A stretch of 64,000 nucleotides of DNA from Thiobacillus sp. Its GTDB lineage: Bacteria; Pseudomonadota; Gammaproteobacteria; Burkholderiales; Thiobacillaceae. The stretch spans positions 1 to 64,000 of the forward strand of contig JAIBEI010000007.1 in NCBI GenBank assembly GCA_019459055.1, given 5' to 3'. Positions 3,850 to 24,930 of this stretch are shown one piece after another. Below the pieces are notes generated by a model. It was given only the letters and a program-made list of their open reading frames with translations, searched no databases and was not told the DNA's origin. Positions within the stretch are counted from its first letter, which is position 1. Each line of letters starts with the position of its first letter. The position numbers and the translations under genes are program-made.

Positions 3850-6147
<2,298 letters not shown>

Positions 6148-17780: not shown

Positions 17781-19166
17781 TTAGAACGGCAACGCGAGGC
17801 CGGGCGCCGCTTCGTGAAACACGCGGCGGAAGTCGGCCTGGATCCGCTCCAGCGCGTCGGCGGTGTCGGCCTCGAAGCGCAGCACGATCACCGGCGTGGT
17901 GTTCGACGGGCGCGCCAGGCCGAAGCCGTCGGCGTATTCCACGCGCAGGCCGTCGAGGGTGATGATTTCCTGCGCATCCGGGAAGCGCGCAGATTTTTGC
18001 AGCGTGTCCATCAGCGCGTAATGCGCGCCCTCGGCCATCTTGATATTGAGCTCGGGCGTGTTCAGCGTGTCGGGCAGGCCATGCAGGGTGGCGTCGATGT
18101 CGGCCTGTTTGGAGAGGTATTCGAGCAGGCGCGCACCGGCATACATCCCGTCGTCGAAGCCGTACCAGCGCTCCTTGAAGAACACGTGGCCCGACATCTC
18201 GCCGGCCAGCAACGCGCCGGTTTCCTTCATCTTGGCTTTGATAAAGCTGTGCCCGGTCTTCCACAGCAGCGGGCGGCCGCCGCGCTCGCGGATCCAGCCG
18301 AACAGCTTGCGCGTGGATTTCACATCGAAAATGATTTCGGCGCCGGGATTGCGGGAGAGTACGTCGTCGGCGAACAGCATCAGCTGGCGGTCGGGGAAGA
18401 TGATGCTGCCGTCCTTGGTGACCACGCCCAGTCTGTCGCCGTCGCCATCGAATGCCAGGCCGATTTCAGCATCGCTGGTTTTCAGTGCGGCGATCAGGTC
18501 CTGCAGGTTTGCCGGCTGCGAAGGGTCGGGATGGTGGTTGGGGAAGTTGCCGTCGACCTCGCAGAACAGTTCCTCCACCTGGCAGCCCATGTCGCGGTAC
18601 AGCTTGGGGGCGAATGCGCCGGGCACGCCGTTGCCGCAGTCGATGATGATCTTCATCGGGCGGGCGAGTTTGACGTCGGAGACGATGCGCGTGAGGTATT
18701 CGCCGGCGATGTCGTATTCGCGGTAGCTGCCGGCGCCGTGCGCCAGATCGTTGTTCACCAGTCGCTCGCGCAGTTTCTGGATGGTGTCGCCCGACAGGGT
18801 TTCGCCGCCGAGCACCATTTTCAGGCCGTTGTAATCGGGTGGATTGTGGCTGCCGGTGACCATCACCGCGCTGTCCGTCTTCAATTGATAGGCAGCGAAA
18901 TACGTCATCGGGGTGGCGACCATCCCCAGGTCCACCACGCCGATACCGGCTTTCTGGATGCCGCGCGCCAGGGCCGCGGCCATGTCGGGTCCCGACAGAC
19001 GGCCATCGCGCCCGATGCAGATTTCGCGCTGGCCGCGCGCCACCGCTTCGGAACCGATGGCGTGGCCGATGGCCTCGACGATTTCCGCCGTGAAGGTCTT
19101 TCCAACGATGCCGCGAATGTCGTAGGCCTTGAAGATTTCCTTGGGGTATTCCACAGTGCACTCCAT
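17781..19166 (-). CDS. Phosphomannomutase/phosphoglucomutase (AlgC type)
   Basis: 461 residues with the four phosphohexomutase domains: FKAYDIRGIVG at the N-terminus, the phosphoserine loop VMVTGSHNPPDYNG, the Mg2+ loop AFDGDGDRLG and the sugar loop GEMSGHVFF. The C-terminal phosphate-binding loop is in RPSNTTPVIVLRFEA. Interconverts mannose- or glucose-6-phosphate and 1-phosphate and so supplies nucleotide sugars for envelope polysaccharides. It lies about 600 bases from the pga-like operon, on the same strand; a shared role in exopolysaccharide supply is plausible but not shown. It is followed closely by corA. Confidence 0.93.
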   Translation of the reverse strand: MECTVEYPKEIFKAYDIRGIVGKTFTAEIVEAIGHAIGSEAVARGQREICIGRDGRLSGPDMAAALARGIQKAGIGVVDLGMVATPMTYFAAYQLKTDSAVMVTGSHNPPDYNGLKMVLGGETLSGDTIQKLRERLVNNDLAHGAGSYREYDIAGEYLTRIVSDVKLARPMKIIIDCGNGVPGAFAPKLYRDMGCQVEELFCEVDGNFPNHHPDPSQPANLQDLIAALKTSDAEIGLAFDGDGDRLGVVTKDGSIIFPDRQLMLFADDVLSRNPGAEIIFDVKSTRKLFGWIRERGGRPLLWKTGHSFIKAKMKETGALLAGEMSGHVFFKERWYGFDDGMYAGARLLEYLSKQADIDATLHGLPDTLNTPELNIKMAEGAHYALMDTLQKSARFPDAQEIITLDGLRVEYADGFGLARPSNTTPVIVLRFEADTADALERIQADFRRVFHEAAPGLALPF

Positions 19167-19264: not shown

Positions 19265-19696
19265 TTAATGCAGCACCACAGGCGGGGTGCGCATGGGCGG
19301 CGTGCCGCCGACCTGGAGCGGCGAGGCATGGTGCAGCACCATGCGCCAGCCGTCGGCTTCCCTGCGATACACATTGGTTGCCAGAATCGGCGGGCGCGGC
19401 TCGGTTTCCTGCCCGATGAACAGATATTCGCGCACGATGCGGACGACCTGGCCGGCCTCGCGTATTTCATGCGCGAGTTCGACCTGCACGCGGAACTGTC
19501 CGGCGGCCTCGAACATGCTGCGCCAACCGGCCGCCACGGCGGCGCGCCCGTCCAGCGGCGCGGCCAGCGGATGGATGCAGGCGATGCTGTCGTTATGAGC
19601 CCAGACCGCCATCATGGCGTCGAGGTTGCGCGCCTCGAAGGCGGCGTAGAAAGCGGCTTCGGCGGCTTCGGGTGTGGGGTAGGTGTGTTCGGGCAT
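19265..19696 (-). CDS. SnoaL-like/DUF4440 family protein
   Basis: 143 residues, NTF2-like cone fold: YPTPEAAEAAFYAAFEARNLDAM (helical start), AVWAHNDSIACIHPLAAPLDGRAAVAAGW (two parts), a beta region VVRIVREYLFIG and TNVYRREADGWRMVLHHASP at the end. Such proteins are small enzymes or binding proteins with no common reaction; no function is claimed. Upstream there is a tandem CGGATTGCG pair (19704-19721) in a short intergenic region. Confidence 0.82.
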   Translation of the reverse strand: MPEHTYPTPEAAEAAFYAAFEARNLDAMMAVWAHNDSIACIHPLAAPLDGRAAVAAGWRSMFEAAGQFRVQVELAHEIREAGQVVRIVREYLFIGQETEPRPPILATNVYRREADGWRMVLHHASPLQVGGTPPMRTPPVVLH

Positions 19697-19807
19697 GACT
19701 CTCGGATTGCGCGGATTGCGCGAAACAACCTGAATTGTAGCGAGGGAGACGCCAATTCATTCGAATATAGCCCGTCGTTGCGACCGCGGAGGAAGCGGAT
19801 ACGTCGA

Positions 19808-21475
19808 TCAGTAGAGCCAGATCAGGCTGGCGCCGAGATAGTCGCGGGTATACCCGCTGCCCCCGTTCTGGAAGGTACTGCTGTCGCTGCCGCCGGCATA
19901 CAGGCGCAGTCGCAGCATGGACGTGAGATCGCGTGCGGCAGACAGTTCCCAGGCGTAGAGGCCGTTGCTGTCTCCTGGGGTTTCCCACAACTTCCCCAAT
20001 GCCAGCCGGGCCTCGAGCAGCCAGCTTGCGGTTTCGTGCTCGGCGCGCGCCAGCATCTTGAGTTCACGGTAGCGTTCGGGGTTGTAGTAGCCACGATCGA
20101 TGGCCGGATCGGAATCGTTGAACCCCATGCCCTCAAGCCCGAGCACAATTCGGGGCTGTGCCGTCGTCAGGATGTGTTCGACACGACCGACCAGGCGCGT
20201 GCGCAGGTTGTCGTCGTCGAAGCGTAAGACGGCACCGCCCAGCGTGGCATTCCAGCGGGGTGCGAAGCGCCAGTCCATACTGGCTGAAAATGCCTTCAGC
20301 GTGACCTTGTTGTGAATGGCGTCGATGTTCTCGATCACCTCGTTGCCGGCTTCCAGGTCGATGCGCCAGAAATCTGCCGGAATCCACTTGCTTTGCAGCT
20401 TCCAGGCAGCCGTCTGCCAGCCGTCATAATCGCGCACGCCCAAGGTCAGAGCCGGCCAGAACAAGCCTTGTTCGGCATTGCCCAGGCGGGTGCCGGCTCT
20501 GGCCAGCAATTGGCGGCCTTTGATCCGGTTGCCGTTTTGCTCGATGCGGGCATCGCGCGCGGATACATCAAGTGAATAGCCTGCGGCAAAACGCTGTTGC
20601 CAGCCCAGGCGCAAGGCATGAACGTCGAGCTGGTCGCTGTCCCGGGATGTTTCGAATTCGCTGTACAGGGCGGAGGCGGTTTCCCGTTCGAGGATGCTGC
20701 GCAGGACATCGGCGTCGCGCCCCTCCATGTCGCCCAGTGTGGTGAGCGAGATATTCTCCAGCCCAGACCAGCGCAGGGCTGTTGCACGTTCGACCCGGGT
20801 GTCGCGTGCGAGCGCAGTATTGTTCTCAATGGCCGCCGCATAGGCAGAGACTGCCGCGAAATGGCGACCGCCATGGTTGAGCGCGCGGGCAAGGCCGATC
20901 TGTGCTTCCTTGTCATGCGGGTGCGCTTTCAGGATGGCGCGATAACGTGCGGCAGCTTCTTCATGCCGGTCAAGCCAGAGCAGCACACGCGCTTCGCCCT
21001 TGCGTGCCCTGAGATCGGTTGGTTCGGAAGACAGGGCGCGATATACGACGAGTGCTTCCTCAAGTTTGTTGCTCACGGAATACGATTCGGCGAGTCCGTG
21101 CAGGGCCTCGGTTCTTTGTGCGGGTACTTGTTGCGTCACTTCCTGAAACAGGGGTATGGCTTCTGCATGGCGGCCGCCCCAGGCGAGTTGCCAGGCCAGT
21201 GAAAGAAGCACGTCCTCCCGTCTTTGCGGAGCAACCTCGAACACCTGCTGGTACAGGTGGGCGGCAGAAGAGTGCCGGTCTGCCCAGGCATGGATACGTG
21301 CGGCCTCAATCAGCAGATCAGCCTGGCCGGGTTGTTCGGTCAGCAGAACGTCGTACACGGCGATCGCCTCGGCATAACGCTGCTGGTCAACCAGCATGCG
21401 GGCCTGGTTCAGGTCGGCGCCGAAGGCGGGAATACCCAGACTCAGTGCGCTGAGCAAAGACAGCATCTTGATCAT
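19808..21475 (-). CDS. PgaA-like TPR/beta-barrel exopolysaccharide export porin
   Basis: 555 residues. Signal peptide in the first ~20 (MIKMLSLLSALSLGIPAFGA). Residues ~22-300 are tetratricopeptide repeats (QRYAEAIAVYDVLLTEQPGQ, HAEAIPLFQEVTQQVPAQ, HEEAAARYRAILKAHPHDK). The remainder is a beta-rich outer-membrane barrel ending in YLGASLIWLY (aromatic C-terminus). The two-part design is that of PgaA, which exports poly-beta-1,6-N-acetylglucosamine across the outer membrane. At about 555 residues it is shorter than E. coli PgaA (about 800), so the TPR region is reduced. The ATG overlaps the pgaC stop by three bases. It is the last gene of the operon. Confidence 0.8.
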   Translation of the reverse strand: MIKMLSLLSALSLGIPAFGADLNQARMLVDQQRYAEAIAVYDVLLTEQPGQADLLIEAARIHAWADRHSSAAHLYQQVFEVAPQRREDVLLSLAWQLAWGGRHAEAIPLFQEVTQQVPAQRTEALHGLAESYSVSNKLEEALVVYRALSSEPTDLRARKGEARVLLWLDRHEEAAARYRAILKAHPHDKEAQIGLARALNHGGRHFAAVSAYAAAIENNTALARDTRVERATALRWSGLENISLTTLGDMEGRDADVLRSILERETASALYSEFETSRDSDQLDVHALRLGWQQRFAAGYSLDVSARDARIEQNGNRIKGRQLLARAGTRLGNAEQGLFWPALTLGVRDYDGWQTAAWKLQSKWIPADFWRIDLEAGNEVIENIDAIHNKVTLKAFSASMDWRFAPRWNATLGGAVLRFDDDNLRTRLVGRVEHILTTAQPRIVLGLEGMGFNDSDPAIDRGYYNPERYRELKMLARAEHETASWLLEARLALGKLWETPGDSNGLYAWELSAARDLTSMLRLRLYAGGSDSSTFQNGGSGYTRDYLGASLIWLY

Positions 21476-22740
21476 GCGTTTTCCTGCGAGAAATCCTTGC
21501 GCACGGTGCTCCAGCGAATCGATTTCCGCGAGGGTCGCCTGAATAGCCAGTGCAGGGAAATGAAGTTGGCCCATGCAAGGAGCATCCAGTACACAATCGG
21601 GTAATACACGGCGTAGGGATAGTATTTCAGCGAGCCGGGATCGTAGCGACGATCCAACAGGGTCCCGGTGAACAATTGCAGGATGGCGAGCGTTGCGATC
21701 ACCATGCCCCACAGATTGGGAATGGGGTGCGCACCCACCGGTGGATAGCCCGCGGCGTAGGATACGATCCACAGAGTGGTCAAAATCACGAAGCAGGCTG
21801 ACCACAGGATCGACAAAACAGACTCGATGAAGATCGGCCACATGCGGCGGTATTTCCAGTGCAGGATGACATCGTGGTGCTTGTGCAGCACCTGCATCAA
21901 TCCCCGCGACCAGCGGCGGCGCTGGCTGAACAGGTCGGACAGGGTGGAGGGCACCGTCATCCATACCAGTGCATGCGGTTCGTACCGAATGTCCCAGAAA
22001 CGCCGCTGCAATTTCCAGGTGAGTTCGATGTCCTCGGTCGGCATTTCCGGCGAGAAGCCGCCGACGTCGAGCAGGGCCGATTTGCGGAAGGCTGCCACCA
22101 CCCCGGACACCGTCATGATGCGTCCCCAGATGCGCTGCGAACGGCGCAGCAGGCTGACGATGGAGCTGAACTCGATCAGTTGCAGCCGGGCAAGGAAGGT
22201 GTCCACGTTCTTGACGCGCGGGTTGCCGGTCACGGCAGCGACCCGCGCATGTTCGAAGTGCGGCAGCATGTGGGTGAGAATGTCCGGCGCGGGTTCGGCG
22301 TCGGCATCCATGATGAGCACGATTTCGCCGTTGAGGCAGGGCAGGGCATCGTTCATGGCCATTGCCTTGCCTTCGTTCTGCTGCTTGACGATCAGCCGCA
22401 CCTGACCGCGTTTGACGTACGACTCGACGACACTGCGCGTGCCGTCGCTGGAGCCATCGTCGACCACCACCACTTCGTAATCGGGGTAGTCGATCGCGGT
22501 CGCCGCCGCCAGCGCGTTCCCGATCACCCGCTCCTCGTTGTGGGCGGGAATGAGTACTGAAACGCGGGGGTAGCGCGCAAGCTGCGCCGGTTCGCCACGG
22601 GTTTCCCAGCGATTGCGAAAAAACATCGCGGTCGTGATCCACATCACGCTTGTGACCATGGGGTACGCGGCAAAAAATAGAATGGCCAGCCAATAGAGCC
22701 AACTGTGCTGAATGGCTGCGAGAATATCGACCAGTGTCAT
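21472..22740 (-). CDS. PgaC-like family 2 glycosyltransferase (exopolysaccharide synthase)
   Basis: 422 residues. Two N-terminal membrane segments (about 13-40), a GT2 catalytic domain and three or four C-terminal membrane segments. The processive synthase signature is complete: DDGSSDGT (Asp94-95), DADAEP (145-147), TEDIELTW (Glu236-Asp237) and QRRRW (273-277). PgaC/IcaA polymerises UDP-GlcNAc into a beta-1,6 chain and moves it through the inner membrane with PgaD. The gene overlaps pgaD by four bases. The polymer cannot be fixed from sequence; GlcNAc is the usual product of this group. Confidence 0.88.
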   Translation of the reverse strand: MTLVDILAAIQHSWLYWLAILFFAAYPMVTSVMWITTAMFFRNRWETRGEPAQLARYPRVSVLIPAHNEERVIGNALAAATAIDYPDYEVVVVDDGSSDGTRSVVESYVKRGQVRLIVKQQNEGKAMAMNDALPCLNGEIVLIMDADAEPAPDILTHMLPHFEHARVAAVTGNPRVKNVDTFLARLQLIEFSSIVSLLRRSQRIWGRIMTVSGVVAAFRKSALLDVGGFSPEMPTEDIELTWKLQRRFWDIRYEPHALVWMTVPSTLSDLFSQRRRWSRGLMQVLHKHHDVILHWKYRRMWPIFIESVLSILWSACFVILTTLWIVSYAAGYPPVGAHPIPNLWGMVIATLAILQLFTGTLLDRRYDPGSLKYYPYAVYYPIVYWMLLAWANFISLHWLFRRPSRKSIRWSTVRKDFSQENA

Positions 22741-23144
22741 GCGGCTTTAGGCTGCGGTTGCAGCGCGTCAATGGGCGCCAGGAAATGTTTCTGCTCGGCT
22801 GTGCTCTCTATGGTGATCAGGTACGCCAGTTTGATCTGGTCGAAATTGGCACGAACTGGGCGCCCGGTCCAGTCCTGCTCGTAGGAAACCTCAACGACCT
22901 GCACCTGTTGTCTTGGCCCCTTGCGGCTGTAGATTTCCCGGTTATGCAATACCCAGTACAGCGTGATGATCGGCAGCAGTACCACGGCACTGGCAAGCAG
23001 CCAGACGATGTTGGACAGGGAATGGGATTTCTGTAGCAGGACCGCATACCAGAACCCACCAAAAAGGCACCAGCCCAATATGACCAGGATGGCATGCCAA
23101 ATTATATGGAGCGGCCCGGACAGGGCTGGTCGTTGGGAAGGCAT
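22737..23144 (-). CDS. PgaD-like inner-membrane protein
   Basis: 135 residues with two membrane segments (about 12-35 and 43-65), followed by WVLHNREIYSRKGPR, a basic region, and a cytoplasmic domain. This layout and the adjacent PgaC give the PgaD call: PgaD is the small partner that PgaC needs for polymer synthesis and that, in E. coli, binds c-di-GMP together with PgaC. Sequence resemblance alone would be weak. It starts only three bases after the PEP-CTERM gene stops and overlaps pgaC, so all belong to one transcript. Confidence 0.72.
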   Translation of the reverse strand: MPSQRPALSGPLHIIWHAILVILGWCLFGGFWYAVLLQKSHSLSNIVWLLASAVVLLPIITLYWVLHNREIYSRKGPRQQVQVVEVSYEQDWTGRPVRANFDQIKLAYLITIESTAEQKHFLAPIDALQPQPKAA

Positions 23145-23147
23145 CGT

Positions 23148-23936
23148 TCAGCTCCGGCGACGACGGATAGTCAGGCCGAAAGCGGCCAATCCGGCCAGCA
23201 TCAGCAAGGGAACCGAAGGTTCCGGAATCGGGCTGGTGAAGAGGTGGGGCTGCGGCACCAGCGCCCAATCGTCTGCCCCCGGCGTATACCAGGCCAGTTG
23301 AACGGCACCAGCTTCAAGACGCTCGTAAGCATCCAGCTGAAATCCATACAATCCGGTCGAGAGCTGCAGATCTTCGGGAAATCCCAGGCGCTCTCGTGGG
23401 TTGAGACCATCACGCAGGATGCTGAGTGAATTTTCGCCCGAGCCAAATAGGCTAAATCGGAAGCCGTCGTCGAAAAGCACGCTGAAGTTGTATGCGCCAG
23501 GTGTGGTGATGGCGATATAGCCCCAGAAACTGGATACCCAGTTGTCCTGGTTCTCCTCCGGCGTGTTGTTGAAAATGGGAGCAAGCAACGGCGTGCTCCA
23601 CGAGGCACCCCACTCGTCAATGAAACGCTGGTCGGCAAAATTGATCTGGTCGACGCGCGCCGTAAGGGTCTGCACGACGAAAGGATCGTTATCCGCGAGG
23701 CCCATGACCTGGGCGTGATCACCAAGCCCCCAGAGGCCGGTACCCCAGGACTGGTCGCCATAGAGATCACCGCGCCAATCGTCGATGACCTGCACCCAGG
23801 TGCTGTTGGCGCCGTCACCATTCTGATAGATGCCGTCATATTGCGGCGTGATCGGCAGCGCATGTGCCGTGGCAGTCAGCCCAAGCAGCAGCGGCAGGGA
23901 GAGTGCGTTGCGCAGGTTGAGCGGGTTCGGATTCAT
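23148..23936 (-). CDS. PEP-CTERM sorting-domain protein
   Basis: 262 residues. Signal peptide (LSLPLLLGLTATAHA, cleaved near residue 26) and a mature domain containing WGYIAITTPGAYNFSVLFDD. This stretch resembles a PA14-type carbohydrate-binding strand pair (weak). The C-terminus reads IPEPSVPLLMLAGLAAFGL followed by IRRRRS: a PEP motif, one membrane helix and an Arg cluster. That is the PEP-CTERM signal recognised by exosortase EpsH/XrtA-type enzymes, so the protein should be cut and exported to the surface or matrix. It is the first gene of the operon with pgaD-C-A homologues. No exosortase lies in this window, so one must be encoded elsewhere. Confidence 0.88.
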   Translation of the reverse strand: MNPNPLNLRNALSLPLLLGLTATAHALPITPQYDGIYQNGDGANSTWVQVIDDWRGDLYGDQSWGTGLWGLGDHAQVMGLADNDPFVVQTLTARVDQINFADQRFIDEWGASWSTPLLAPIFNNTPEENQDNWVSSFWGYIAITTPGAYNFSVLFDDGFRFSLFGSGENSLSILRDGLNPRERLGFPEDLQLSTGLYGFQLDAYERLEAGAVQLAWYTPGADDWALVPQPHLFTSPIPEPSVPLLMLAGLAAFGLTIRRRRS

Positions 23937-23973
23937 GGTGGACTCCAGATTTTTTCAGGGTTTGCTTAAGCAA

Positions 23974-23990
23974 TAGCAATTCCTGTTCCA
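23974..23990 (-). promoter_or_regulatory. Sigma-54 (RpoN) promoter of the PEP-CTERM/pga operon
   Basis: Minus-strand TGGAACAGGAATTGCTA fits the sigma-54 consensus TGGCACR-N4-TTGCW, with GG and GC twelve apart as required. The predicted start point is about 12 bases downstream, leaving a leader of roughly 28 bases before the ATG at 23936. GGAG precedes the ATG. A 12-base palindrome TTGCTTAAGCAA (23962-23973) lies at the start-point region. PEP-CTERM genes are known to be RpoN-dependent through PrsK/PrsR in other bacteria. Confidence 0.72.
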
Positions 23991-24207
23991 GTCTCTGGGC
24001 GCCCGCCTGCATGCAGAGAGGCGGTGCGAGAACGGAAATATCTGGCTCCGGGTGTTGTCGTTTCGACAGCGTCGGCAGAAAGGCGGCGACGATTATTCGG
24101 CGATGTTCACCGGAACGGCTTTTTCTTCTTCGGAGAACGTCCTCAACGACGACGCTGAGAGGTCGGCGCGGTCAGATACGAAATCACGGCAATCCGCGCT
24201 GCCGCCC

Positions 24208-24930
24208 TCAAAACCGCTCGTCCCCGCGCAGGTAGCGCCACTGCCCTGCCGGCAGCTTTCCCAGCGGGACGCGGCCAAGGCGGATGCGTTTCATCGACAG
24301 CACCTGCAGGCCGACGGCTTCGCACAGGTGCGCGATCTGTCCCGGTAGGGCGCCTTTCAGCGCCACCCGCAGGCGGGTTTCGTTTTGCCAGCTGACCTTG
24401 ATGGCGGGCGGGGTCTTGCCGTGGTAAGGGATGCCCCGGTTCAGCCGCTTGAGCCCGTTGGCGGCCAGTTCGCCCGCGACTTCGACGACGACTTCGTGCT
24501 CCAGGGAAGTGGCGTCTTCGGTCAGCTTGCGCGCCACGCGCCAGTCCTGGGTGAAGACGACGAGGCCGCTGGCATCGGTTTCCAGCAGCCCGCATAAAGT
24601 CAGTTGGGCGAAGTGCTTTTTCAGCGGACGCATGCCGGAGGTGTCCTCGGCCCACAGATTGGCGGAGGTGAGCAACTGCGACGCGGGCGGCTCGCCCTCG
24701 ATCGTGTGATAGCCGGGCGGTTTGTGCAGCAGCAGAGTGACCGGTTCGGCCTGGCTGGGGTCGGCCCGCGGGTCGATTTCGATGTGCTGGTCGGTGACGC
24801 GGAACTGCGGTTCCTCGACGACGACGCCGTCGACCCGCACCCAGCCGCCGGCGATGAATTGCTCGGCTTCGCGGCGCGAGCAGCCGCGCAGTTCGGCGAC
24901 GCGTTTGGCAAGGCGGACGGGTTCGGTCAT
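24208..24930 (-). CDS. RsuA-family rRNA pseudouridine synthase (RluF/RluB-like)
   Basis: 240 residues. S4 RNA-binding domain at the N-terminus (VRLAKRVAELRGCSRREAEQ) and a catalytic domain with LLHKPPGYHTIEGEPP and the active-site block LCGLLETDASGLVVFTQD. The Asp in ETDASGL corresponds to the catalytic Asp of the GRLDxxSxGLL motif; the usual GRLD is altered to GLLETD. The family converts uridine to pseudouridine in ribosomal RNA. Closest resemblance is to RluF/RluB-type enzymes, but the exact target base is not assigned. Downstream of the DUF3999 gene on the opposite side of a short gap. Confidence 0.85.
   Translation of the reverse strand: MTEPVRLAKRVAELRGCSRREAEQFIAGGWVRVDGVVVEEPQFRVTDQHIEIDPRADPSQAEPVTLLLHKPPGYHTIEGEPPASQLLTSANLWAEDTSGMRPLKKHFAQLTLCGLLETDASGLVVFTQDWRVARKLTEDATSLEHEVVVEVAGELAANGLKRLNRGIPYHGKTPPAIKVSWQNETRLRVALKGALPGQIAHLCEAVGLQVLSMKRIRLGRVPLGKLPAGQWRYLRGDERF

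Follow-up and report, generated by a model that had tools for sequence, protein, structure and literature searches.

A gene unit conserved in Thiobacillus and other proteobacteria joins a predicted PA14 lectin with an exosortase-type sorting tail to a PgaC-like synthase and a PgaA-like exporter, with no PgaB alongside

What does a protein with an exosortase sorting tail do among genes for the synthesis and export of an exopolysaccharide, and how would such a gene set manage without a PgaB-type deacetylase? This question is raised by a 64,000-nucleotide (nt) stretch of contig JAIBEI010000007.1 from Thiobacillus sp. (GCA_019459055.1), hereafter the window, in which four minus-strand genes run from 23936 to 19808. 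The first gene (23148..23936) encodes a PEP-CTERM protein of 262 amino acids (aa), which is followed by a PgaD-like small membrane protein of 135 aa (22737..23144), a PgaC-like processive family 2 glycosyltransferase (GT2) of 422 aa (21472..22740), and a PgaA-like outer-membrane protein of 555 aa, in which tetratricopeptide repeats (TPRs) precede a beta barrel (19808..21475). Genes 1 and 2 are separated by 3 nt, and the next two junctions are 4-nt overlaps. An initial annotation of the sequence had given these coordinates, strand, and gene order, all of which were borne out, and the arrangement is consistent with its view that an exosortase substrate is clustered with synthase and export genes; no sign of separate transcription of the PEP-CTERM gene was seen in the sequence.

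The explanation that we favor, with a probability of roughly 0.58, is a deacetylase-free, synthase-dependent exopolysaccharide system that has its own exosortase-sorted lectin tethering the polymer to the cell. Transcription of all four genes as one message would start from a sigma-54 promoter that has an activator site upstream; the PgaC-like GT2 and its small membrane partner would polymerize and extrude a polymer, probably based on N-acetylglucosamine (GlcNAc) or glucose and not deacetylated; and the TPR-barrel protein would carry it across the outer membrane. The first gene would supply a PA14 lectin, whose PEP-CTERM tail exosortase A is expected to cut, delivering the protein to the cell surface. 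There the lectin would grip the polymer via calcium and keep it on the cell, a grip that would substitute for the role of partial deacetylation in poly-N-acetylglucosamine (PNAG) systems. Of the interpretation given in the initial annotation, the cluster and the lack of a PgaB over the cut-off stood, and the exosortase that it said to look for was found; the fully acetylated, beta-linked polymer that it envisaged may or may not be the product, and the PA14 fold, the breadth of conservation, and the sigma-54 element had been missed.

The four-gene unit is conserved beyond the window. Gene presence in relatives was taken from tblastn, our own gene caller missing some genes such as the window pgaC, and the start codons of relatives are our own calls. 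The PgaD-like small protein was found in 11 of the 117 genomes of the window's family, the window genome counted. Nine of these 11 carriers have the full four-gene order, with the exporter running off the contig in two of the nine, and in the remaining two the unit is cut by contig ends, on opposite sides. The full order was also present in 10/10 distant loci examined (L043–L046, L047, which equals L073, and L074–L078), where the first protein shares 29–42% identity. The distant loci came from lectin-profile searches of class and order genomes, together with a single scan across named genomes, which gave 15 loci. L047 and L073 come from one genome, listed as both G489 and G749, and were counted once, and L034–L042 are further records of family contigs already counted; L048, cut by a contig end, and L053–L055, partial PA14 matches with no match to the other three genes (hereafter the trio) nearby, were left out of the counts. 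The adjacency of PEP-CTERM, GT2, and PgaA-like genes noticed in the window thus recurs among relatives, and within the genome set four or more families (f1, f24, f158, and f192) contain the unit. Flanking genes vary between loci. Close upstream in six relatives lies a gene that is an aminotransferase by alignment, which we take to be ilvE, and which is not part of the unit.

One could argue that the genes are neighbors by local accident, or that they form a mobile cassette, with no functional meaning in either case, given the patchy spread of the unit: besides the 11/117 family genomes, the lectin profile gave matches in seven of 369 class genomes (partial matches only in three) and in four of 399 order genomes, the window genome being counted in both sets. 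The comparative data largely refute this explanation, which we regard as highly improbable, since the same order is kept in the 10 distant loci at 29–42% lectin identity, genes overlap by 4 nt, and the promoter-type sequence described below is kept in 10/10 family loci, these loci being related rather than independent.

The first protein is predicted to have a PA14 lectin fold. It begins with a signal-like stretch, recognized by eye, and the fold covers approximately residues 27–235 (23232–23858, minus strand) by profile and Foldseek structure match. A single-sequence search of the PDB with the PEP-CTERM protein gave nothing useful, only one chance match (expectation value, E, 1.2). A profile of 18 lectin sequences, however, matched the PDB entry 6qdi with an E of 7e-12, RsgI3 with 1.6e-7, and the MpPA14 entries with about 1.7e-3, and 17 of the 18 sequences had Pfam PA14 matches with E values of 0.1 or lower, the best being 3.1e-7. 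The AlphaFold model built from the 18 sequences had a mean predicted local distance difference test score (pLDDT) of 86.4 and a predicted template modeling score (pTM) of 0.79; an earlier model from 10 close relatives, with a pLDDT of 57.8, was set aside. Structural similarity was determined with Foldseek alone. Against sugar-bound MpPA14, the model gave a best E of 7e-8 and a template modeling score (TM-score) of 0.65 by target and 0.48 by query, with 12–13% sequence identity in the structural alignments. Other matches were the adhesin PA14 domain 6m8m and yeast Epa, Flo, and Cea1A-GlcNAc structures. The matches to the PDB at E ≤0.001 numbered 49: 41 were PA14 adhesin lectins or the anti-sigma entries 6qdi/6qe7, six were GH31, and two were CBM61.

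The predicted fold includes an Asp-Asp pair of the calcium type, and sugar binding is predicted from it. Asp156 is kept in 18/18 aligned lectins and Asp157 in 16/18, the other two having Glu; the pair (codons at 23466..23471, minus strand) aligns with the DDG of MpPA14. In a 1,6-linked GlcNAc chain the 3,4-diol is free on every residue, whereas in 1,4-linked chains it is free only at the end. Because the 3,4-diols are left free by the 1,6 linkage, we infer that the product of a PgaC-type synthase would be a plausible ligand of the lectin. MpPA14 is described as preferring fucose and GlcNAc, contacting the sugar at its 3,4-diol through a calcium that consecutive aspartates bind, and the same source assigns the calcium role in PA14 lectins to the DcisD motif (PMC8092209), with which Asp156-Asp157 align.

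The second half of the question concerns the deacetylase. A PgaB (TIGR03938) over the cut-off of 321.9 bits was found in 0/19 carrier genomes searched, a set that comprises all of the 21 carriers except the distant ones G691 and G720; in a control set, one of 14 genomes was over the cut-off, and five controls, E. coli among these, gave a signal. The statement of the initial annotation that PgaB is missing therefore holds for the window genome and for the 18 other carriers checked, and no PgaB-type deacetylase over the cut-off accompanies the operon. The window genome encodes three polysaccharide deacetylases, none of them near the operon in the window. One is an XrtA-system enzyme (460.9 bits to TIGR03006), the second is NodB-like (117.5 bits; cut-off, 240), and the third, at C51:54427 in a glycosyltransferase-rich stretch, scores 52.6 bits to PgaB and 36.1 bits to IcaB, a partial similarity in each case.

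These enzymes bring up a different explanation, namely, a divergent PNAG system whose deacetylase acts in trans, either the XrtA-system deacetylase or the carbohydrate esterase family 4 (CE4) protein on C51, so that the polymer would be partly deacetylated. The existence of three candidates, with the PgaB and IcaB similarity of the C51 protein, speaks for it, as does the finding that 14 of the 19 carriers match the deacetylase part of TIGR03938 below threshold (best, 93.9 bits). None of these matches, however, reached the PgaB cut-off or extended past profile position 265 of 621, one of the three enzymes is accounted for as the XrtA-system deacetylase, and searches with E. coli PgaB or any of the three enzymes gave no hit among the 22 operon loci (E 1e-3). 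We consider a deacetylase in trans unlikely and retain the deacetylase-free system as the preferred reading.

The trio was compared with the PNAG machinery. Among NCBIfam families, the synthase fits PgaC_IcaA (TIGR03937) much better than any other (375.9 bits, E 2e-112; next family, 1e-33), and it shares 34% identity with E. coli K-12 PgaC over 419 positions. Its DD, DAD, TED, and QR.RW residues, which are presumably catalytic, are invariant across 10 sequences, and in tblastn searches E. coli PgaC matched 22/22 loci, namely, that of G383 and 21 others that hold the whole unit or the greater part of it. The exporter has TPRs and matched Pfam PgaA_barrel at 27.4 bits (cut-off, 27), and 12/13 aligned exporter members matched that barrel (best E, 1e-11), while the window protein's score against the full-length TIGR03939 was only 69.4 bits (cut-off, 366.65). 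The small protein of the window matched no PgaD family; three of 10 aligned family members matched TIGR03940 marginally (best E, 0.036) and one of 10 matched Pfam PgaD marginally (E 0.15). We therefore call it PgaD-like by position and general make-up, with homology to PgaD undetected. Among the labels PgaD, PgaC, and PgaA given in the initial annotation, the PgaA-type exporter stands, PgaC is the best family at a score below its cut-off, and homology to PgaD was not detected. Side observations on these genes include a second GT2 gene of 470 aa, distantly PgaC-like (26% identity) and convergent to the unit, in two genomes of one genus (L076:10160-11572 and L077:5109-6521), and an exporter of 992 aa in G272 (L078:8963-11941), whose TPR part is apparently repeated several times.

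Since the synthase scores under the curated PgaC/IcaA equivalog cut-off (375.9 versus 422.3 bits), its product may not be PNAG. The polymer could be another glycan, for example, a glucan, if the GT2 shares only its architecture with PgaC, as the 34% identity to E. coli PgaC might also suggest; in addition, a phosphoglucomutase/phosphomannomutase gene lies about 9 kb or less from the unit in the window (17781–19154) and in three relatives (L024, L029, and L030). PgaC_IcaA is nevertheless far the best family, at 2e-112 versus 1e-33, and the PgaA-type barrel occurs in 12/13 exporters, leaving another glycan as a tentative possibility.

The route of the first protein to the surface would depend on its C terminus. 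The window protein has a C-terminal Pro-Glu-Pro, a hydrophobic stretch, and an Arg cluster (IPEPS to RRRR, 23154..23228, minus strand). This tail scored 20.6 bits against TIGR02595 (cut-off, 16), or 25 bits in the genome-wide search, and 19.8 bits against Pfam PF07589, just below the cut-off of 20.7. The window genome has four PEP-CTERM genes over the cut-off, the operon's own counted, and the exosortase locus that one would look for is present in it: an exosortase A (XrtA), which scored 366.6 bits (cut-off, 208) and bears a fused EpsI domain, together with an XrtA-system amidotransferase and deacetylase and with PrsK, PrsR, and PrsT. Exosortase family members were found in 10/11 family carriers and in 9/10 distinct distant carriers, and overall in 92/117 family genomes. 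Sorting of the lectin by exosortase is thus possible. The PEP motif is in the tail of 10/10 family lectins and of four of the 10 distant ones (L043, L044, L076, and L077). A second sorting system of the window genome, an exosortase H beside an IPTL-CTERM protein, was seen at G000:C20 (L022:2371-4342).

For transcription, a sigma-54 type -24/-12 sequence, TGGAACAGGAATTGCT (23975..23990, minus strand), lies 38 nt 5′ of the first start codon and would place the transcription start near 23960; equivalents occur in 10/10 family loci with upstream sequence (L031 has TTGT for TTGC). By an ad hoc weight table of our own, the window promoter scored 19.0, a value reached at nine of 127,970 window positions. 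An upstream activator-like box, TGTCGAAACGACAACA (24053..24068, minus strand), lies 62 nt before the -24 element. This 16-nt box, TGTCG-N6-CAACA, is found 62–72 nt further upstream in six of the 10 family loci, and a seventh locus has a near-match 73 nt upstream. The combined pattern of box and promoter occurs once in the window genome and in 15 of the 117 family genomes; the reversed pattern, used as a control, gave 0. Six of the 15 matches precede the operon, eight precede a nifH-like gene, presumably nifH (L087, L089, L091, L092, L093, L095, L096, and L101), and one lies in G066, a genome without the operon. NifA sites have the form TGT-N10-ACA. Because the same pattern precedes the nifH-like gene in eight family genomes, the box of the operon has the shape of a NifA site. 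In G066 (L088; G066:C16, approximately 4382–4484), the box and -24/-12 element lie beside the same upstream aminotransferase gene and are followed by an unrelated gene call, no match to the PgaD-like protein was found in that genome, and the site looks like a promoter left over after operon loss.

PEP-CTERM genes of proteobacteria are described by Haft and colleagues as having a 17-nt motif ending in TTTACA approximately 63 nt before the sigma-54 element (PMC1569441). In the window genome a 17-nt motif of this kind, TGTCGGGATNNTTTACA, was found on contig C45, where it precedes the promoters of two PEP-CTERM genes by 84–85 nt. There are 0 such motifs in the window, the operon having TGTCG-N6-CAACA instead, so that membership of the operon in a plain PrsR regulon is weakened: the -24/-12 element is present and the TTTACA-ending motif is absent. 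The activator of the operon may be PrsR, a NifA-like protein, or another.

Upstream of these elements, terminator-like hairpins (24185..24205) lie directly 3′ of the preceding gene (24930..24208), between that gene and the operon; the hairpin evidence is weak, with seven terminator-like sites in 5 kb versus a mean of 3.9 in shuffled sequences. No sigma-70-like promoter was found across 19300–24300. A SnoaL-like gene follows the four-gene unit in the window (19265–19696) and likewise in L024, L030, and L033, and an S4-domain gene lies in the window's flank of the operon.

Several observations weigh against the proposed lectin-tethered system. For the lectin, the window protein alone scored 19.6 bits against Pfam PA14 (E 8e-4), under the 24-bit cut-off. 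For sorting, exosortases were also found in 82 of the 106 family non-carriers, and their co-occurrence with the unit is therefore not specific; none was found in the family carrier G094 (81% complete) or in the distant carrier G486. Six of the 10 distant lectins (L045, L046, L047, L074, L075, and L078) have no PEP motif and carry VPVPA, IPLPG, SAPGT, GLPGT, SMPGT, or VPLPA before the hydrophobic stretch, with the rest of the unit kept, which makes exosortase sorting less sure in these carriers. The tail may follow the local sorting enzyme, and sorting may differ in those relatives. A scan of eight distant loci failed to find the promoter sequence. For the trio, apart from the score of the synthase below its equivalog cut-off, E. 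coli PgaA and PgaD matched 0/22 loci by tblastn (E 1e-3), and profile comparison of the small protein with E. coli PgaD by hhalign found nothing (probability, 0.3). Finally, G383 (L085, G383:C8:234-4014) keeps the synthase trio without the lectin, with no PA14 gene in the 787 nt before the trio, though G272 of the same genus has a lectin there; and G272 has the full unit plus a further lectin-like gene that no trio accompanies (L079:5495-6352, G272:C16). The pairing of lectin and trio is therefore not absolute. The extra G272 gene carries a VPLPA tail.

These two genomes also speak for another explanation, in which the lectin would be an adhesin for another cell, for a mineral-bound glycan, or for the separate XrtA exopolysaccharide, co-regulated with the polymer genes but not binding their product; its best structural matches, MpPA14, Epa, and Flo, bind foreign glycans according to PMC8092209. 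In our judgment, however, tight linkage at the same position in 19 genomes with the whole unit visible, across lectin identities from 79% to 29%, exceeds what shared regulation usually produces, and we find the adhesin explanation doubtful. A lectin that holds the cell's own polymer remains our preferred explanation, at the probability given above.

How far does this unit differ from known systems? E. coli K-12 pgaABCD shares with it a PgaC-type GT2 (34% identity), an adjoining small membrane partner, and an exporter with TPRs and a PgaA-type barrel. Unlike pgaABCD, the window unit has no PgaB, has the order lectin-D-C-A rather than A-B-C-D, encodes an exporter of 555 rather than 807 aa and a small protein without detected PgaD homology, and adds an exosortase-type lectin and a sigma-54 type promoter sequence. 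Environmental pga-like operons without pgaB and pgaD are likewise rearranged, with pgaB undetected, but the passages that describe them mention no PEP-CTERM or lectin gene, and the term PEP-CTERM is absent from the text (PMC7112194). The pepA gene of Aquincola tertiaricarbonis is a PEP-CTERM gene with a -24/-12 promoter in a host with PrsK, PrsR, and PrsT; it is reported as RpoN-dependent, and its product acts with exopolysaccharide in flocs (PMC9850573). In that account a terminator lies between pepA and the following gene, prsT, and pepA, unlike the window gene, forms no unit with synthase and exporter genes (PMC9850573). The window protein scored only 13.7 bits against the PepA floc model (cut-off, 80).

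Among PA14 proteins, TraA of Myxococcus xanthus shares a PA14 lectin-like domain, two aspartates, and a C-terminal surface-sorting tail, which is of the MYXO-CTERM type; it differs in this tail, in a cysteine-rich stalk, in its partner TraB, and in acting in outer-membrane exchange, and the source's account of the TraA operon mentions no polysaccharide synthase (PMC3325183). MpPA14 of the Marinomonas adhesin, the best structural match, shares the PA14 fold and the aligned Asp-Asp-Gly, and it is described as a domain of a 1.5-MDa adhesin (PMC8092209), as against the small protein with a sorting tail here. The initial annotation had named no described system of this make-up, and the literature that we searched likewise yielded no paper naming PEP-CTERM with PgaC; within that literature the combination appears undescribed, its parts being known. 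A further-reaching proposal would make these units a separate class of biofilm machine, characterized by an acetylated, 1,6-linked polymer rich in 3,4-diols, a dedicated short PgaA-like porin, no PgaB, and an exosortase-sorted calcium lectin of its own, in short a "lectin to stick" in place of "deacetylate to stick," which we offer only tentatively. If it were true, the pairing of lectin and polymer would hand the PEP-CTERM protein a predicted ligand.

To our knowledge, the function of PEP-CTERM proteins once sorted is largely open. Here conserved gene order links one such protein, with a predicted sugar-binding fold, to a single synthase and a single exporter, which gives the protein a testable ligand. 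The PNAG-binding domain of PgaB has been called critical for export (PMC5933820), and the unit questions the need for a PgaB-type deacetylase in export via PgaA-type porins. Several of the carriers are, by name, sulfur bacteria (Thiobacillus, Sulfuriferula, and "Sulfur_bin"), in which attachment and aggregation matter.

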